The notes beneath the pieces were generated by a model. The model had not been told where the DNA came from and ran no database searches. It saw nothing but the letters and a program-made list of their open reading frames with translations. From Candidatus Aminicenantota bacterium (GTDB taxonomy: Bacteria > Acidobacteriota > Aminicenantia > Aminicenantales > Aminicenantaceae), in the NCBI GenBank assembly GCA_030614685.1, contig JAUWTO010000003.1, positions 1-46,060 of the forward strand: a DNA stretch of 46,060 nucleotides. The letters run 5' to 3'. Numbering within the stretch: position 1 is the stretch's first letter; the number at the start of each line of letters is the position of its first letter. Position numbers and translations under genes: made by a program. Shown here piece after piece: positions 8,946-24,220 of the stretch.

Positions 8946-9622
8946 AGAAGCTCGCCCCCAGGGATTTTCCCGGCCACCTCTCGGCCACCGTCTTCACCGG
9001 GGGCTGCAACTTCCGCTGCCCATACTGCCACAACGCTGAGCTGGTCCTGAGGTCGGCGTCTCTCAGCACGATATCCCGGGAGGAGTTCCTAGAGTTTCTG
9101 GAGGTGCGCAGGGGATTTCTCGAGGCCGTCTGTGTCACGGGAGGGGAGCCTCTCATGCACGAGGATGTGGGAGACCTCCTGGGTGCCATCAAGGGAAAGG
9201 GACTCCTGGTCAAAATCGACACCAATGGGGCCTATCCAGAACGGCTGCGGGAGTTGATCACGGAGGGAATGGTGGATTATGTGGCCATGGATGTGAAGGC
9301 CCCTCTCGAAAAATATCCGAAAGCCGTGGGTGTCGCAGTCGATACGGAGGCCATCCGGGAGAGCATCGCCATTCTCAGGGAATCCGGATGCGGCCACCTC
9401 TTCCGGACCACGGTGGTGCCAGGCCTGCTGTCCGGGGATGACATCGGGGCCATCGCTGAAATGCTCGAGGGCGCGGCAGAATACAGGCTGCAGCCATTTA
9501 TCGCTGGCCACACCCTGGATCCGGCCTATGCCGACCGTCCCTCCTGCAAAAGAGAGGAACTTTCCCGGCTGGCCGGAATCGCAGGGGAGTATATCCCCAA
9601 CGTCACGATCGAAGGGACGTAA
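8924..9622 (+). CDS. nrdG: anaerobic RNR-activating radical SAM protein
   Basis: TGGCNFRCPYCHN radical-SAM CxxxCxxC motif, VTGGEPLMHEDV; TTG start overlapping the upstream gene. Confidence 0.93.
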   Translation: MVEIKGLEKLAPRDFPGHLSATVFTGGCNFRCPYCHNAELVLRSASLSTISREEFLEFLEVRRGFLEAVCVTGGEPLMHEDVGDLLGAIKGKGLLVKIDTNGAYPERLRELITEGMVDYVAMDVKAPLEKYPKAVGVAVDTEAIRESIAILRESGCGHLFRTTVVPGLLSGDDIGAIAEMLEGAAEYRLQPFIAGHTLDPAYADRPSCKREELSRLAGIAGEYIPNVTIEGT

Positions 9623-9627
9623 ACAGC

Positions 9628-10050
9628 ATGGAACTCAAAGTCAAACGGCTGAACACGGACGCCAAACTGCCCTGCTACGGCCATCCCGGTGACGCGGGGC
9701 TGGATCTATTCAGCGCCGTCGACATGGTCCTCGAACCGGGGGAAGCGCAGGCGGTGCCCACGGGGATCCAGACCGCCATCCCGGTCGGTCATGTCGGGCT
9801 GGTCTGGGACAAGAGCGGGATCTCCTTATCCGGAGTTCACAGGCTGGCAGGGGTTGTGGATGCGGGCTACAGAGGGGAGATCAAGGTCGTCATGATCAAC
9901 CTAAGCCGCGGCGATTTCGTTATTTCCAAGGGCATGAAGATCGCTCAGATGCTCATCCAGCCGGTCATCGAGGTGTCGGTGAGCGAGGCCGACAGCCTGG
10001 ATGACACGGAGAGAGGCGAGGGAGGATTCGGGAGCACCGGGCGCTTCTGA
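9628..10050 (+). CDS. dut: dUTP diphosphatase
   Basis: DAGLDLFS, DKSGISL, GVVDAGYRGEIKV, GGFGSTGRF dUTPase motifs. Confidence 0.95.
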   Translation: MELKVKRLNTDAKLPCYGHPGDAGLDLFSAVDMVLEPGEAQAVPTGIQTAIPVGHVGLVWDKSGISLSGVHRLAGVVDAGYRGEIKVVMINLSRGDFVISKGMKIAQMLIQPVIEVSVSEADSLDDTERGEGGFGSTGRF

Positions 10051-18017: not shown

Positions 18018-18218
18018 GAAGAGAGAGGGCGGCCATAACAAACAAAACGATCATACACTTCGCCTGACTGTCCGGACCGAGCCGCACCGGCATTTCTGTT
18101 GCCTAAAGTGTAAAAATGTTGTAGATATTGAGAACGAGGACACGCCCGCTCGCGAACTCGAAGGCCATCGAGCCAAGGGCTGCCAGGTTTACTTGCATGG
18201 CGTGAGTACTGACTGCTG

Positions 18219-18256
18219 CCGTTCATTGAACGGTTGATATTTTACATTATTATACT
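18219..18256 (+). promoter_or_regulatory. candidate promoter with overlapping palindrome upstream of the ferritin-like gene
   Basis: perfect palindrome CCGTTCA-T-TGAACGG (18219-18233) overlaps TTGAAC (-35-like, 18226-18231); TATTAT at 18248-18253. Confidence 0.5.
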
Positions 18257-18809: not shown

Positions 18810-18826
18810 TGTAAAGATATTTTACA
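18810..18826. promoter_or_regulatory. candidate enhancer (UAS) palindrome TGTAAA-N5-TTTACA
   Basis: TGTAAAGATATTTTACA; matches TGTAAAACCCTTTTACT at 23363-23379 in architecture. Confidence 0.6.
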
Positions 18827-18897
18827 TATTTTCCTTTTTGTGTTATCCTATCCATGACTCACCCCTGGAAATCCGAGGGTGGACCCTGGGTTCATGG

Positions 18898-18913
18898 TGG
18901 TATGAAACTTGCT
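18898..18913 (+). promoter_or_regulatory. sigma54-type -24/-12 promoter
   Basis: TGGTAT-GAAAC-TTGCT, GG-N10-GC spacing, upstream of the solute-binding protein operon. Confidence 0.65.
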
Positions 18914-18955
18914 CCTGAAAAACCCCTGAACCATGCACCGATAATTGGATAGACA

Positions 18956-20551
18956 ATGCACATCAAGCTACCGCTCTTACTGCTTTTTTTCACCTTCATC
19001 GCAGGGGCGTCGCCCCAGCTTTCCGAGGAGGTCAGCGATCCGGTCGTAGTGTTCAACTCGGCTTCCCAGAACATCTTCCGTCTCAAGGCTTTTGGTGAGA
19101 GCTTCGAGGTCCAGCTGGATCCTATCCACCCCGACGCCACTGTTTTTGTCTCGGAGCAGCTCTTCGATGGTCTGGTGACCCTGGATTCCGAGCTGAATCC
19201 CGGGCCCGCCCTGGCAGACTACTGGTACAAGGACCCCCAGGGCCTCTTCCACCGCTTCATGCTGCGCAAGGGTGTTCGGTTTCATCACGGCGAGGAGCTT
19301 ACTGCCGAGGACGTGAAATTTTCCCTGGAACGAATCCTGGATCCGGCAAACGCATCGCCCTATGCCGAGTACTTCCTGGACCGTGTGGTCGGGGCCCGGG
19401 AATTCAACTCCGGAAAGGCGAGGGAGGTCACTGGATTTAGGGTCGTGGACAGCCTTACGTTTCAGATCCGGTGGACGAGACCCTATGCCATGGCACTTTC
19501 TCTGCTGAGCATGCCTTTCTGCAAGATCCTGCCGCGGGACCGCGTCCTGGAGCAGGAGAGGGGCTTTTTTCAGAAACCGGCCGGCACGGGACCCTTCATG
19601 TTCGAGGAGTGGGTCAGGGACAACCGCCTGGAGATCGTGGGCGTGCGTCTTGCCAGGAATCCGGGATATTTCGGCGGGATCCCCCACATCGAATATGTGG
19701 AATTCTGTCCCTATTACCAGCTGGATGACTTCATGCAGGGGAAGATCCACGCCATTCCTGTGGAGTCGGAGAGACTGCTCCAGGGGGATTATCAGGTCTT
19801 CCGAGACGGATCCATCCATCCGTTTTTCCTGGGGATGAGCTGCCATATCGCGCCGCTGGACGACCCCCAGGTCAGGCGGGCCATCGCACTCGGCATCGAC
19901 AAGCCGGAGATCGTGCGGGTCACACACGATGTGAGATATCACAGGCAGCTGCTGCACGGCTTCATCCCCTCCAAGCTGCCCGGCTTCTTCCTGACCGATG
20001 AATTGAACACCTACAACGTTCAACAGGCCCAGGAGATGCTGGAGGGAGCGGGGCTGACCCAGGAAAAATTCCCCGAACTCACGCTGCTCCTGGAGGAGCC
20101 CCGCACCGATTTCAAGCACCTCCTCTTTGTTGAGCTGCGCCGCCAGATGAGGGCTTTGGGGATTGATCTGAGGGAAGAATATTACCGCAGGATCGAGCAG
20201 GTGAGGAATTTCCGGAGACCCTACCTGATGCTGAGCTCTCTGCGGCTGGATTTTCCCGGCCCCGAGGCTATCATCCGCCCTCTCTTCTCTTCGAATGCTC
20301 CGGAAAACCTGTGCCGCTACAGCAATCCCGAGCTTGACGGCCTGCTGAGGACCGCAGATCTGGAAAAGAGCTGGAATGTCCGCAGGGATCTTTTTGTGCA
20401 GATTCAGAAGCTCCTCAACACAGATATGCCGGCCGTACCCCTGTTCACGCAGCAGAACCAGGTGGCCGTGCAGCCCTTTGTGCGGGGGATCAAAAATCAA
20501 TCCCTGGGATTCTACTATATCAAGATGAAAAACGTCCGAGTGGAGAGATAG
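18956..20551 (+). CDS. family 5 (DppA/OppA-like) extracellular solute-binding protein
   Basis: signal peptide; DATVFVSEQLFDGLVTLDSELNPGPALADYW, LRKGVRFHHGEELTAEDVKFSLERILDP, GTGPFMFEEW. Confidence 0.93.
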   Translation: MHIKLPLLLLFFTFIAGASPQLSEEVSDPVVVFNSASQNIFRLKAFGESFEVQLDPIHPDATVFVSEQLFDGLVTLDSELNPGPALADYWYKDPQGLFHRFMLRKGVRFHHGEELTAEDVKFSLERILDPANASPYAEYFLDRVVGAREFNSGKAREVTGFRVVDSLTFQIRWTRPYAMALSLLSMPFCKILPRDRVLEQERGFFQKPAGTGPFMFEEWVRDNRLEIVGVRLARNPGYFGGIPHIEYVEFCPYYQLDDFMQGKIHAIPVESERLLQGDYQVFRDGSIHPFFLGMSCHIAPLDDPQVRRAIALGIDKPEIVRVTHDVRYHRQLLHGFIPSKLPGFFLTDELNTYNVQQAQEMLEGAGLTQEKFPELTLLLEEPRTDFKHLLFVELRRQMRALGIDLREEYYRRIEQVRNFRRPYLMLSSLRLDFPGPEAIIRPLFSSNAPENLCRYSNPELDGLLRTADLEKSWNVRRDLFVQIQKLLNTDMPAVPLFTQQNQVAVQPFVRGIKNQSLGFYYIKMKNVRVER

Positions 20552-20560
20552 GGCAACGAA

Positions 20561-22024
20561 ATGGCCGTGTATATCTCTTTACGCACTCGCCTGGCGCTCT
20601 GGGTGATCTTTCTGCTCCTCGCCCAGGTGGTTTTGGTCCTGTTCGTGATCCAGCGGCAGGAGGTCGTCGCCATTGAGCAGGAGCAGAGGGAGAAGGGCCT
20701 GGTCCTGGCCAACAGCATCATCCAGGAGAACACCCCCCTTCTGGTGCGGTTCGATTACGACGCCCTTAAGGAAAACCTCGATGCCCGGATCGATGATATG
20801 CTGGTCTATATCATCTTCTATAATCGTTTCAACATGCCGGCCGCGGGCAATGACTTCATCGTCGGATTCGATGACATCTATCAGTTCACCAATCTGGGGG
20901 AGGATCTTACTGACAGGGAGGCCGTCGTCCGGCGGCATCAGCTGCGGGATGCCGAGCACAACCCCCTGGTCGATGTGCTCGAGATCGAGATCCCTATTTT
21001 CCTGCGGGATGTGAGCGATCGTTGGGGTTCCGTGAAGCTGGGACTTTCTCTGGATGAGATGCATGCCGAGGTGCGGCGCACGAGCATGCTGCTGCTGGGG
21101 ATCGGGGTCCTGGGTCTCCTGATCGGGATCATCGGTGCGACCTGGCTGGCTCGCAGGATCACGACGCCCCTCCAGAAACTCGTGGAGGGCACCAAACAAC
21201 TCAGCCGGGGAGATTTTTCCCTCCAGATCGACATCGATTCCCAGGATGAAGTAGGAAACCTGGCCAGGAGTTTCAACGAGATGAGCAGCCAGCTCCAGCT
21301 GCTCCAGAAACGGATGGAGGAGGCGAACAAGCGCCTGATCCAGGTCGAGAAGCTGGCCTCCATCGGGCACATCTCCGCCGGTATCGCCCATGAGATCCGC
21401 AATCCTCTGACGGCTGTGAAGCTGAACATCCAGAAGATCAGCGCAAAAGAGAACCTGGACGAGGGGGACCTGGTCAACCTGGAGATTTCCCAGGAAGGCA
21501 TCGCCCAGATCGAGAAGTTCATCAAGGAGCTCCTGAATTATGCCCGGGTCTCCGAGCTCAATCTGGACTGGTTTGCCATGGACCAGATCATCGACGGATC
21601 CATCAAGATGATCGCCGATTCACTCGAGCTAAAGAATGTGACGATTGAAAAGCACTATGCCCCAGATATGCCCCAGGTGCGTGTGGATGCGGACAAGGTC
21701 CGTCAGGTCATTCTGAACATGCTGCGCAACTCCTGTGAGGTGGTCGATGTCGGCGGGAAGATCAAGGTCCGCATCGAGAAGGCCGACACGCCTTCCGGGC
21801 CCCGGCTGCGGACTTTGATCTCAGACAACGGCAGGGGCGTCCCACAGAAGGACTGGGAGAACGTGTTCGAGCCGTTCTACACCACCAAGGCCAGCGGGAT
21901 CGGCTTGGGCCTGGCCATCGCCCGCAAGATACTCGAACAGCACGACGGCACCATCCGGGTGAGAGCCCAGGAGGGCCGGGGCAGCTGCTTCGAGATCCTC
22001 CTCCCCTGTGAGAGTGAAACATGA
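20561..22024 (+). CDS. sensor histidine kinase with periplasmic domain, HAMP, HisKA and HATPase
   Basis: two TM segments; HAMP-like RRITTPLQKLVEGTKQLSRGDF; GHISAGIAHEIRNPLTAVKLNIQ H-box; SDNGRGVPQ and GIGLGLAIARKILEQHDGTI. Confidence 0.95.
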   Translation: MAVYISLRTRLALWVIFLLLAQVVLVLFVIQRQEVVAIEQEQREKGLVLANSIIQENTPLLVRFDYDALKENLDARIDDMLVYIIFYNRFNMPAAGNDFIVGFDDIYQFTNLGEDLTDREAVVRRHQLRDAEHNPLVDVLEIEIPIFLRDVSDRWGSVKLGLSLDEMHAEVRRTSMLLLGIGVLGLLIGIIGATWLARRITTPLQKLVEGTKQLSRGDFSLQIDIDSQDEVGNLARSFNEMSSQLQLLQKRMEEANKRLIQVEKLASIGHISAGIAHEIRNPLTAVKLNIQKISAKENLDEGDLVNLEISQEGIAQIEKFIKELLNYARVSELNLDWFAMDQIIDGSIKMIADSLELKNVTIEKHYAPDMPQVRVDADKVRQVILNMLRNSCEVVDVGGKIKVRIEKADTPSGPRLRTLISDNGRGVPQKDWENVFEPFYTTKASGIGLGLAIARKILEQHDGTIRVRAQEGRGSCFEILLPCESET

Positions 22025-23355
22025 AAACCATCCTGATCGTTGACGACGATCCCCTCATCCTGAAGACTCTGTCTTCGCATTTCACGAATAGCGGCTACGA
22101 GGTTTTGACTGCTGCGGACGGCAGAGAGGGCCTCCAAAAATATACCGATGCGATGCCTGACCTCGTCATCCTGGACATCCGCCTGCCCGATGTGGACGGC
22201 CTGGAAGCACTCAAGCGGATCCGGGGCATCGATCCGAAGGCCCTGGTCGTCATCATCACCGCCTTCGACGACATGAAGACCACAGTGGAGGCCATTAAAT
22301 CCGGCGCCTTCGAGTATCTGGTCAAGCCCCTGGATTTCCTGGAGCTGGATCTCACCATCAACAAAGCCTTCCAGGTCAGCAAGTTGGAGGGCAAGCTGCA
22401 TTACCTGGTCGAGGAGAAGCAGAAGGAATATACCATCGACAACATCATCGGCCGCTCCCCCCCAATGCGAGAGGTCTTCAAGCTGATCGGATCTGTGGTC
22501 AACAACCGGGCCAATATCCTGATCCAGGGAGAGAGCGGGACAGGCAAGGAGTTGTGCGCCAAGGCCATCCATTACAACAGCGCCAACAAGGACGAGCCGT
22601 TTATCGTCATCAACTGCTCAGCCATTCAGGACACTCTGCTCGAGAGCGAGCTGTTCGGCCATGTCAAGGGCGCCTTCACCGATGCGATCCAGGAGACCAA
22701 GGGCAAGTTCGAGATCGCCGGTAAGGGGACGCTGTTCCTGGATGAGATCGGAGACATCTCACCCAACCTGCAGTCCAAGCTGCTGCGGGTGATCGAGAGC
22801 CGGGACTTCATGAAGGTGGGAGGGGAGAAGGTCCTCACGACCGAGGCCCGCATCATCGCCGCCACCAACAAGGACCTGAAGACTCTGATCGAAGAGGGGA
22901 CGTTCCGGGAGGATCTGTACTGGCGGCTGAAGGTCGTGGAGATCAAGCTGCCTCCGTTGCGCGAACGCAAGGAAGATGTTCCCGAACTGGTGGGCTACCT
23001 GATGGAGAAGATCAACCGGGAGCTGCGCAAGAATGTGCGCAAGGTGCCGGATCATGTCATGAAAAAGCTGATCGCCTGGCCCTGGAAAGGCAATGTCCGG
23101 GAGTTGGAGAACGCCCTGACCCATGCCGCTATCCTGGCTAAGGGGGACATCATCCTGGAGGAAAACCTGCCCCTTGAAGGAGGCGACAAGAATCCCTATC
23201 CCCAGAAGCTGGTGGCCCTTAAGGAAGTGGAGAAGAGCTACATCCAGCATGTCCTCCAGATCGCCAAAGGGTCCAAGATCCAGGCCAGCCAGATCCTGGG
23301 GATCAGCCGCCCTACTCTGGACAAGAAGATCAAGGATTACCAGCTGGACGTCTGA
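22021..23355 (+). CDS. NtrC-family sigma54-dependent response regulator
   Basis: receiver ILIVDDDPLILK...VILDIRLPD...EYLVKPLD; AAA+ GESGTGKE, GAFTDA loop; C-terminal Fis HTH SKIQASQILGISRPTLDKKIKDYQL; ATGA overlap with the kinase gene. Confidence 0.96.
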   Translation: MKTILIVDDDPLILKTLSSHFTNSGYEVLTAADGREGLQKYTDAMPDLVILDIRLPDVDGLEALKRIRGIDPKALVVIITAFDDMKTTVEAIKSGAFEYLVKPLDFLELDLTINKAFQVSKLEGKLHYLVEEKQKEYTIDNIIGRSPPMREVFKLIGSVVNNRANILIQGESGTGKELCAKAIHYNSANKDEPFIVINCSAIQDTLLESELFGHVKGAFTDAIQETKGKFEIAGKGTLFLDEIGDISPNLQSKLLRVIESRDFMKVGGEKVLTTEARIIAATNKDLKTLIEEGTFREDLYWRLKVVEIKLPPLRERKEDVPELVGYLMEKINRELRKNVRKVPDHVMKKLIAWPWKGNVRELENALTHAAILAKGDIILEENLPLEGGDKNPYPQKLVALKEVEKSYIQHVLQIAKGSKIQASQILGISRPTLDKKIKDYQLDV

Positions 23356-23362
23356 ATCAGAA

Positions 23363-23379
23363 TGTAAAACCCTTTTACT
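23363..23379. promoter_or_regulatory. candidate enhancer palindrome TGTAAA-N5-TTTACT
   Basis: TGTAAAACCCTTTTACT; a second TGTAAA half-site begins 20 bp downstream at 23383. Confidence 0.6.
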
Positions 23380-23460
23380 TGGTGTAAAATTTATTTCCGA
23401 GTATTCTTATCTAAATGTTAAACTATCCCCTTTTTTCCCCTGGGAAGCCTTTTCTAAACT

Positions 23461-23476
23461 TGGCACGAAACCTGCA
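23461..23476 (+). promoter_or_regulatory. sigma54-type -24/-12 promoter
   Basis: TGGCAC-GAAAC-CTGCA, GG-N10-GC spacing, upstream of the single-domain receiver gene. Confidence 0.72.
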
Positions 23477-23514: not shown

Positions 23515-23910
23515 ATGTCTATTAAAAAAGTACTCATCGTTGAAGACGAACCCACCATACGCAAGACCTTTACCGTGCTCCTGGAGAACCGGTATCGAGT
23601 CGTTGCCGTGGAGTCTCCCCGCGAAGCTCTGCAGCGCTTCCGCAAGTCCAAGATCGATTTGATCATAACAGACCTGAGGCTGCCTGAAATGAGTGGACTG
23701 GACCTGATCGAGCGGTTCCGTGCCTCGGGTTATGAGGGCGATGTCATCCTGATCTCCGGCTATCCGGAGGATGTGGATACCGATATCCTGCTCGACCTTT
23801 CCATCGGGTATTTCTTTGCCAAACCCCTGGATCTGGACGAACTGAACAATGCCATAGAGTATGTGCTGGACACACGGCTGTGGCATGAGAAACGCATAGC
23901 CAGTATCTAA
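23515..23910 (+). CDS. single-domain response regulator (receiver only)
   Basis: KVLIVEDEPTIRKTF, LIITDLRLPEMSGL, YFFAKPLDLDEL; no output domain; start at MSIKKV. Confidence 0.9.
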   Translation: MSIKKVLIVEDEPTIRKTFTVLLENRYRVVAVESPREALQRFRKSKIDLIITDLRLPEMSGLDLIERFRASGYEGDVILISGYPEDVDTDILLDLSIGYFFAKPLDLDELNNAIEYVLDTRLWHEKRIASI

Positions 23911-23959: not shown

Positions 23960-24220
23960 ATGAATCCGGAGCGTTTTCCTACCTCGTGGGATGCCGAAGA
24001 TCAGAACCCGATTCCGGAATTTTTGGTAACTCTGCAGAACGAGTGTCTGATCGATCTCCTGTTCGAACGCCTGGAGAAGCGGCTGCTGGTTCGGATCCTG
24101 TCCATGAACCGCGGGGATCGTCAGAGGACAGCCGAATACCTGGAGATGGAGTACGCAGTCCTTTGCCAGGAGTTGAAGAAGCACCACCTCATCGTCCTTA
24201 AAGATCACCAAGACACCTGA
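23960..24220 (+). CDS. small protein with Fis-type HTH-like C-terminus
   Basis: LEKRLLVRILSMNRGDRQRTAEYLEMEYAVLCQELKKHHL aligns by eye with Fis/NtrC C-terminal HTH (LxxAGGNxxxAAxxLGISxxTLxxKLKxxxL). Confidence 0.6.
   Translation: MNPERFPTSWDAEDQNPIPEFLVTLQNECLIDLLFERLEKRLLVRILSMNRGDRQRTAEYLEMEYAVLCQELKKHHLIVLKDHQDT

Follow-up and report, generated by a model that had tools for sequence, protein, structure and literature searches.

What is the function of a short palindrome, TGTAAA-N5-TTTACA, that occurs twice in a stretch of 46,060 nucleotides from a Candidatus Aminicenantota bacterium (contig JAUWTO010000003.1; the whole stretch is called here the window), each time upstream of a promoter of the sigma54 type? 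An initial annotation of this DNA proposed that the palindrome is bound by the NtrC-type regulator encoded at 22021-23355, which would control the two adjoining transcription units as a local and probably autoregulated regulon. The evidence gathered here, comparative throughout, makes it very probable that the palindrome is the enhancer of a sigma54-dependent, autoregulated regulon of the Aminicenantales that extends over the whole genome and has this regulator as its binder. We found no open-library paper mentioning both Aminicenantes and sigma-54, and an uncultured lineage would gain in this way a candidate regulon with its sensor (an oligopeptide-type solute-binding protein, SBP), its motif, its regulator and its list of targets, reconstructed across one order.

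The first palindrome (TGTAAA-GATAT-TTTACA, TGTAAAGATATTTTACA; 18810-18826, plus strand) lies upstream of the SBP gene and is followed by a -24/-12 element at 18898-18913 (TGGTATGAAACTTGCT, plus strand), and the second (TGTAAA-ACCCT-TTTACT, TGTAAAACCCTTTTACT, with T as its last base; 23363-23379, plus strand) lies upstream of a gene for a single-receiver protein, with its own -24/-12 element at 23461-23476 (TGGCACGAAACCTGCA, plus strand). All four elements were read directly in the sequence where the initial annotation had placed them, and its spacing of about 80 bp corresponds to measured gaps of 71 and 81 bp between the palindrome end and the TGG of promoters 1 and 2, or 93.5 and 103.5 bp from palindrome centre to GC. 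As described there, promoter 1 precedes the operon for the SBP, a histidine kinase and the NtrC-type regulator, and promoter 2 the genes for the single receiver and a mini-Fis protein. The start of the receiver gene is likely the ATG at 23515 rather than the in-frame ATG at 23476, which overlaps the -12 element. Moreover, a degenerate tandem copy with two mismatches (TGTAAAATTTATTTCCG; 23383-23399, plus strand) is found 20 bp, or two helical turns, past palindrome 2, and tandem repeats of the palindrome at 20-22 bp also occur at loci L065, L066, L081 and L198. Exact matches to the palindrome in the window exceed those in shuffled sequences, and when up to two mismatches are allowed, 8 strand-matches are counted where 0.69 would be expected; no such excess was seen in the window for the one-mismatch promoter pattern taken by itself (3 vs 2.2). 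The region upstream of the rubrerythrin gene holds a site with two mismatches (window positions 18109-18125) and a half site, TTTACA (18236-18246), with no -24/-12 element seen there by eye.

How far does this arrangement reach beyond the window? In the genome to which it belongs (G000, Candidatus Aminicenantes; 2.94 Mb, 83% complete), searched alongside the reversed pattern as a control, TGTAAA-N5-TTTACW occurs exactly in six places against none for the reversed pattern. Each of the six is paired with a GG-N10-GC element 50-97 bp downstream, whose score against a consensus that tolerates either pyrimidine is 11 or 12 out of 12. Four of these exact sites with promoter lie elsewhere in the genome, besides the two in the window, and a 1-mismatch palindrome (C327:5830) is likewise paired with a promoter. 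With at least five further sites outside the window, the "local" part of the initial proposal does not stand; autoregulation of the operon is probable and depends on the lineage. The background density in the window of GG-N10-GC elements with such a score, about 1e-5 per base, gives a chance of roughly 0.001 per palindrome for such a pairing, a rough figure for which the threshold was set afterwards. The exact promoter pattern TGGYAYGN4YTGCW is found 18 times genome-wide against 2 for its reverse. In this regard, a chance similarity of AT-rich intergenic DNA would agree with the lack of genome-wide enrichment of the palindrome at two mismatches (41 vs 50 reversed), but the arms are conserved throughout the order where the flanks are not, and the combined palindrome and promoter pattern, when reversed, returned zero matches in every genome searched, which leaves chance a negligible share. 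On this comparative evidence, the strength of the signal lies in the exact palindrome, its fixed pairing and its conservation.

The geometry of the pairing also bears on the idea that the palindrome is the operator of some other factor, such as a repressor, standing near sigma54 promoters by coincidence. A sigma70-like site (TTTACA-17-TATCCT) does overlap palindrome 1, but sigma70-like sites occur at chance level (3 vs 2.5), and all six exact genomic palindromes, as well as many orthologous ones, are paired with a -24/-12 element at 50-97 bp, the usual geometry of sigma54 enhancer-binding proteins (EBPs), so that an operator of this kind is very unlikely. The rpoN gene required by the proposal is present (PF04552 match at contig C175, E = 1.7e-59), and the genome contains 14 sigma54-activator matches, some of them fragments. 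Its remaining GG-N10-GC promoters, for the most part not accompanied by the palindrome, are presumably served by other EBPs.

Conservation of the SBP-kinase-NtrC operon and of the receiver gene extends over the order Aminicenantales, with the SBP gene kept order-wide; most of the loci that carry a name belong to metagenome-assembled genomes (MAGs) of Candidatus Aminicenantes and Saccharicenans. Among 27 distinct regions upstream of the SBP gene, the arms of the palindrome carry 1.4-2.75 bits of information, against 0.1-1.0 for the spacer and about 0.16 for the flanks, above which the -24/-12 elements rise as well. In 23 of these regions, 69-73 bp separate palindrome and promoter, and most relatives with the site have the element at about 70-73 bp. 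The palindrome is in this way conserved at orthologous loci with a near-fixed spacing, and a few further SBP loci have a perfect palindrome with no promoter match under the scoring rule used. In the relatives, the combined palindrome and promoter pattern gave 141 matches in 74 of 119 genomes. A broader sample of the Acidobacteriota yielded it in 13 of 297 genomes, all of them Aminicenantales (13 of the 19 members of the order and none of the 278 others), again with no match to the reversed pattern. Orthologues of the regulator, defined by at least 70% identity (orthologues show 70-90% and paralogues at most 48%), were detected in 83 of the 119 relatives and 19 of the 297 phylum genomes. The association between site and operon presence reaches p ~5e-14 over the 119 genomes, a value confounded by phylogeny, and p = 0.004 within the order only.

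Which protein would then bind the palindrome? All of 56 orthologues of the regulator share the recognition helix I[S/T]RPTLD[K/N/R]KI, as expected for a constant motif, and SRPTL is absent from the other EBPs of the genome with a readable C-terminus. This constant helix, together with a site at the regulator's own operon, therefore favours the local regulator as the binder. One could instead suppose that the palindrome is a genuine enhancer of another of the roughly one dozen EBPs in the genome, with the local regulator merely one of its targets. The number of activator matches leaves room for such a protein, target motifs of EBPs do not always go in step with the similarity of their DNA-binding domains (PMC4641369), and two genomes have the site with no detected orthologue of the regulator. 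This alternative is nevertheless improbable: genus after genus has the site both before the operon of the regulator itself and before the adjoining receiver gene, the helix is constant in the orthologues and not in the other readable EBPs, and in the phylum-wide sample both site and orthologue are essentially confined to the same order. The proposal of a local regulator that occupies the palindrome and controls both units agrees with the computational tests on rpoN, on conservation of orthologous sites and on co-occurrence, from which we infer the binding.

Several observations weigh against this assignment to the local regulator. Its loop for sigma54 contact has GAFTDA in place of GAFTGA in all 57 orthologues, a variant also present in two other EBPs of the same genome. 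The comparison of EBPs covered all but two fragments at contig ends, in a genome that is 83% complete. The genomes G008 (C51:6874) and G030 (C224:746) are the two that carry palindrome and promoter with neither an SBP nor a regulator orthologue found, which may reflect an assembly gap or another regulator. Moreover, the association of site and operon is not significant in family f1 alone (p = 0.19), in a test confounded by phylogeny. Several families or genera have no site upstream of the SBP gene, and in G095, which falls outside the order, the regulator is accompanied by only a weak site at the receiver gene. Upstream of the receiver gene, a site matching at least 9 of 12 positions is found with a -24/-12 promoter in 26 of the 27 usable loci, with the weaker form of the outgroup G095 among them. 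Because site and promoter are present at nearly all receiver loci and the SBP site is lacking in several families or genera, the receiver gene is by these comparisons the more constant target, with autoregulation of the operon coming and going between lineages.

The nearest precedent for this system is the PrsK/PrsR regulon of PEP-CTERM genes (Haft et al. 2006, PMC1569441), where a kinase and an NtrC-type regulator likewise serve many exported targets. The first motif of the proteobacterial regulon, as described in the text of that paper, has 17 nt with a TTTACA end, is sometimes repeated and stands about 63 nt before the -24/-12 element; the palindrome reported here also has 17 nt, with a gap of mostly about 70. 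Such a likeness could mean that PrsK/PrsR itself was transplanted into Aminicenantes, which is highly improbable: for all the likeness in how the two systems work, neither the PrsR cut-off nor the exosortase places the present one among them. The regulator scores 395.9 bits against an equivalog cut-off (TIGR02915) of 502.6, with several paralogues scoring higher, and an exosortase (EpsH) is found neither in G000 nor in 58 of 60 relatives, with one relative of the 60 above the cut-off. The full-length targets read by eye showed no PEP-CTERM tail, no domain search for the tail having been run. Unlike PrsK/PrsR, the Aminicenantes system also has genes for an SBP and a single receiver, and it is confined here to the Aminicenantales. 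The comparison suggests that an enhancer geometry of the PrsR type is in use outside the Proteobacteria and outside PEP-CTERM genes. In this line, conserved EBP sites before -24/-12 elements have also defined, through comparative genomics, two-component sigma54 regulons in Desulfovibrio vulgaris (PMC4641369) and in Clostridiales (PMC6615313), which differ from the present one in lineage, regulator and targets. Several of the Desulfovibrio EBP motifs have TGT/ACA half sites at a distance of 9, 11 or 12 bp (PMC4641369), and the 11-bp class fits the TGT-N11-ACA of the Aminicenantes palindrome.

The genes of the cluster offer a view of what the system may sense. A secreted family-5 solute-binding protein of the oligopeptide-binding type (SBP_bac_5, Pfam PF00496, 4e-55) is encoded at 18956-20551 on the plus strand, and its best PDB match is the peptide-binding protein 8upi (2.6e-38). 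No ABC permease was seen by eye beside it among the open reading frames in the interval of 14-30 kb. Because of this oligopeptide-binding likeness and the lack of a neighbouring permease, the SBP is likely a sensor, by analogy with three-component systems such as CuaD-CuaS-CuaR (PMC10384115), in which an SBP gene also directly precedes those of kinase and regulator; in contrast to that case, the Aminicenantes regulator is a sigma54 EBP, its SBP is of the oligopeptide type, and the contact between SBP and kinase is putative. The membrane histidine kinase follows at 20561-22024 (plus strand), where a domain search found HAMP, HisKA and HATPase_c and where hydrophobic segments read from the translation delimit an extracytoplasmic segment. 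The NtrC-type response regulator at 22021-23355 (plus strand) combines, according to the same type of search, a receiver, a Sigma54_activat AAA+ domain and an HTH_8 domain with the helix ISRPTLDKKI, the candidate binder of the palindrome.

From this arrangement we infer the following course for ligand sensing, phosphorylation and the direction of regulation. The orphan SBP would report its ligand to the membrane kinase, which would phosphorylate the regulator. Regulator dimers would then occupy the palindrome (at the receiver promoter, both copies of the tandem with its 20-bp step) and assemble into an AAA+ ring. By looping, this ring would reach the RNA polymerase-sigma54 that sits 50-97 bp downstream at the -24/-12 element, and would open the promoter. 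The regulator's own operon would be one target, in a positive feedback; the receiver and mini-Fis genes would be the second, and a unit of ECF sigma factor, zf-HC2 and TonB, together with exported or envelope proteins, would provide further ones.

The single-receiver protein (23515-23910, plus strand; Pfam Response_reg, 5e-24) is conserved across the order. Its alpha1 sequence, IRKTF, resembles that of the regulator (I-R/L-KTL, ILKTL in the window) and differs from that of most paralogues in its own genome; a paralogue at L127 reads IRKSL, and in Saccharicenans the regulator alpha1 has drifted to VSRTL. From these resemblances, the single receiver is plausibly a partner or a phosphate sink and feedback element of the same kinase, and a response-regulator-like protein that inhibits its own kinase in a feedback loop is already known (PMC9430884). 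The mini-Fis protein of 86 amino acids (23960-24220, plus strand) is degenerate, with no Pfam or NCBIfam match for the window copy. Its orthologues at L067 (about 9430-9860) and L198 (7362-7685) have a clear HTH_8 domain (~1e-12), and it was not recovered in Saccharicenans-type loci. Taken side by side, the receiver and the stand-alone Fis-type HTH gene resemble an NtrC protein minus its AAA+ domain.

Beyond the cluster, the sites of the own genome precede an ECF sigma factor gene (C108) and a VWA-related secreted protein (C95), the latter judged from its sequence, with no Pfam match. Two other targets look frame-shifted or truncated, a VWA-related paralogue (C221:36101, L193) and an S8 protease split in two frames (C304:5104, L194), and may be MAG errors or pseudogenes. 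The same switch also stands before very small single-transmembrane peptides of 20-62 amino acids (C327:5830, L195; G020:C42, L152). When target families were counted among the non-local sites fetched from the relatives and from the own genome, a secreted protein of about 360 amino acids and unknown family recurred most (18), followed by proteins resembling M1 peptidases (9; so named after reading their sequences by eye), zf-HC2/TonB units (8), with ECF sigma in 6, and the VWA-related family (5), besides S8 and M16-like proteases. These families recur across genera, and the regulon may serve for peptide sensing and the adjustment of envelope and extracellular proteins. Sigma54 has been generally linked to the cell exterior (PMC3162934), which fits the exported targets found here. 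The candidate regulon would in this way give a regulatory address to uncharacterised secreted proteins and, in relatives, to a CU-rich RNA candidate.

This RNA candidate belongs to a third unit of Saccharicenans-type genomes, 0.5-1.7 kb beyond the receiver promoter and downstream of the receiver gene (L070:10480-10870, L071, L074-L078, L083-L085, L091 and L257-L274), in which palindrome and sigma54 promoter are followed by some 200 variable nucleotides, then by a CU-rich block and an intrinsic terminator hairpin (AGAGGGGTGC...GCACCCCTCT). The CU-rich block, GCCTCCTTTTTGCCCTTCTTTGCCCTTCTTTCCATTCCCCCTTCCTTCAATT, is invariant in 16 of 16 aligned Saccharicenans-type sequences, with at least 50 identical nucleotides, and its CCTCC motifs resemble the anti-Shine-Dalgarno sequence. 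In the upstream hairpin of this Saccharicenans-type element, the few compensatory pairs (3) give weak covariation support. Other genera (L277-L283, L286, L288, L289 and L291) have, after the same type of site, shorter CU-rich candidate transcripts with GC-rich, terminator-like hairpins, which are probably diverged members of the same RNA family. The fold of the L280 candidate has a z-score of -5.3, mainly from its terminator. No match to Rfam was obtained for four loci carrying the element. A protein-coding reading, prompted by an open frame, was considered and set aside: changes at codon positions 1, 2 and 3 (2496, 2515 and 2803) show no third-position bias, 376 synonymous stand against 1374 nonsynonymous changes, none of the synonymous ones falling within the invariant block, and L269 lacks the upstream part of the element. 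The frame is nonetheless open in nearly all sequences.

On balance, the element in the relatives is likely a small RNA driven by an EBP and sigma54. CrcZ offers a known case of a small RNA driven by the EBP CbrB. The resemblance to LuxO-Qrr (PMC10162802) and CbrB-CrcZ (CbrAB review, PMC8871633) consists in the same enhancer and sigma54 promoter being placed, in relatives, before a short RNA candidate with a terminator; unlike those RNAs, the Aminicenantales candidate is CU-rich, has no Rfam match and is not firmly found in the own genome. We give about even chances to the broader idea that the regulator drives a non-Rfam family of sigma54-dependent small RNAs as a LuxO-Qrr- or CbrB-CrcZ-like output, with the co-induced single receiver feeding back on the same kinase. 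In the own genome, a locus at C304:13376 on the minus strand (L196) has a 1-mismatch palindrome with a half site 20 bp on and the sequence TGGCACTAAAACTGCA, together with a stretch rich in C and U and a long hairpin, which is only suggestive of an own-genome copy of this RNA.

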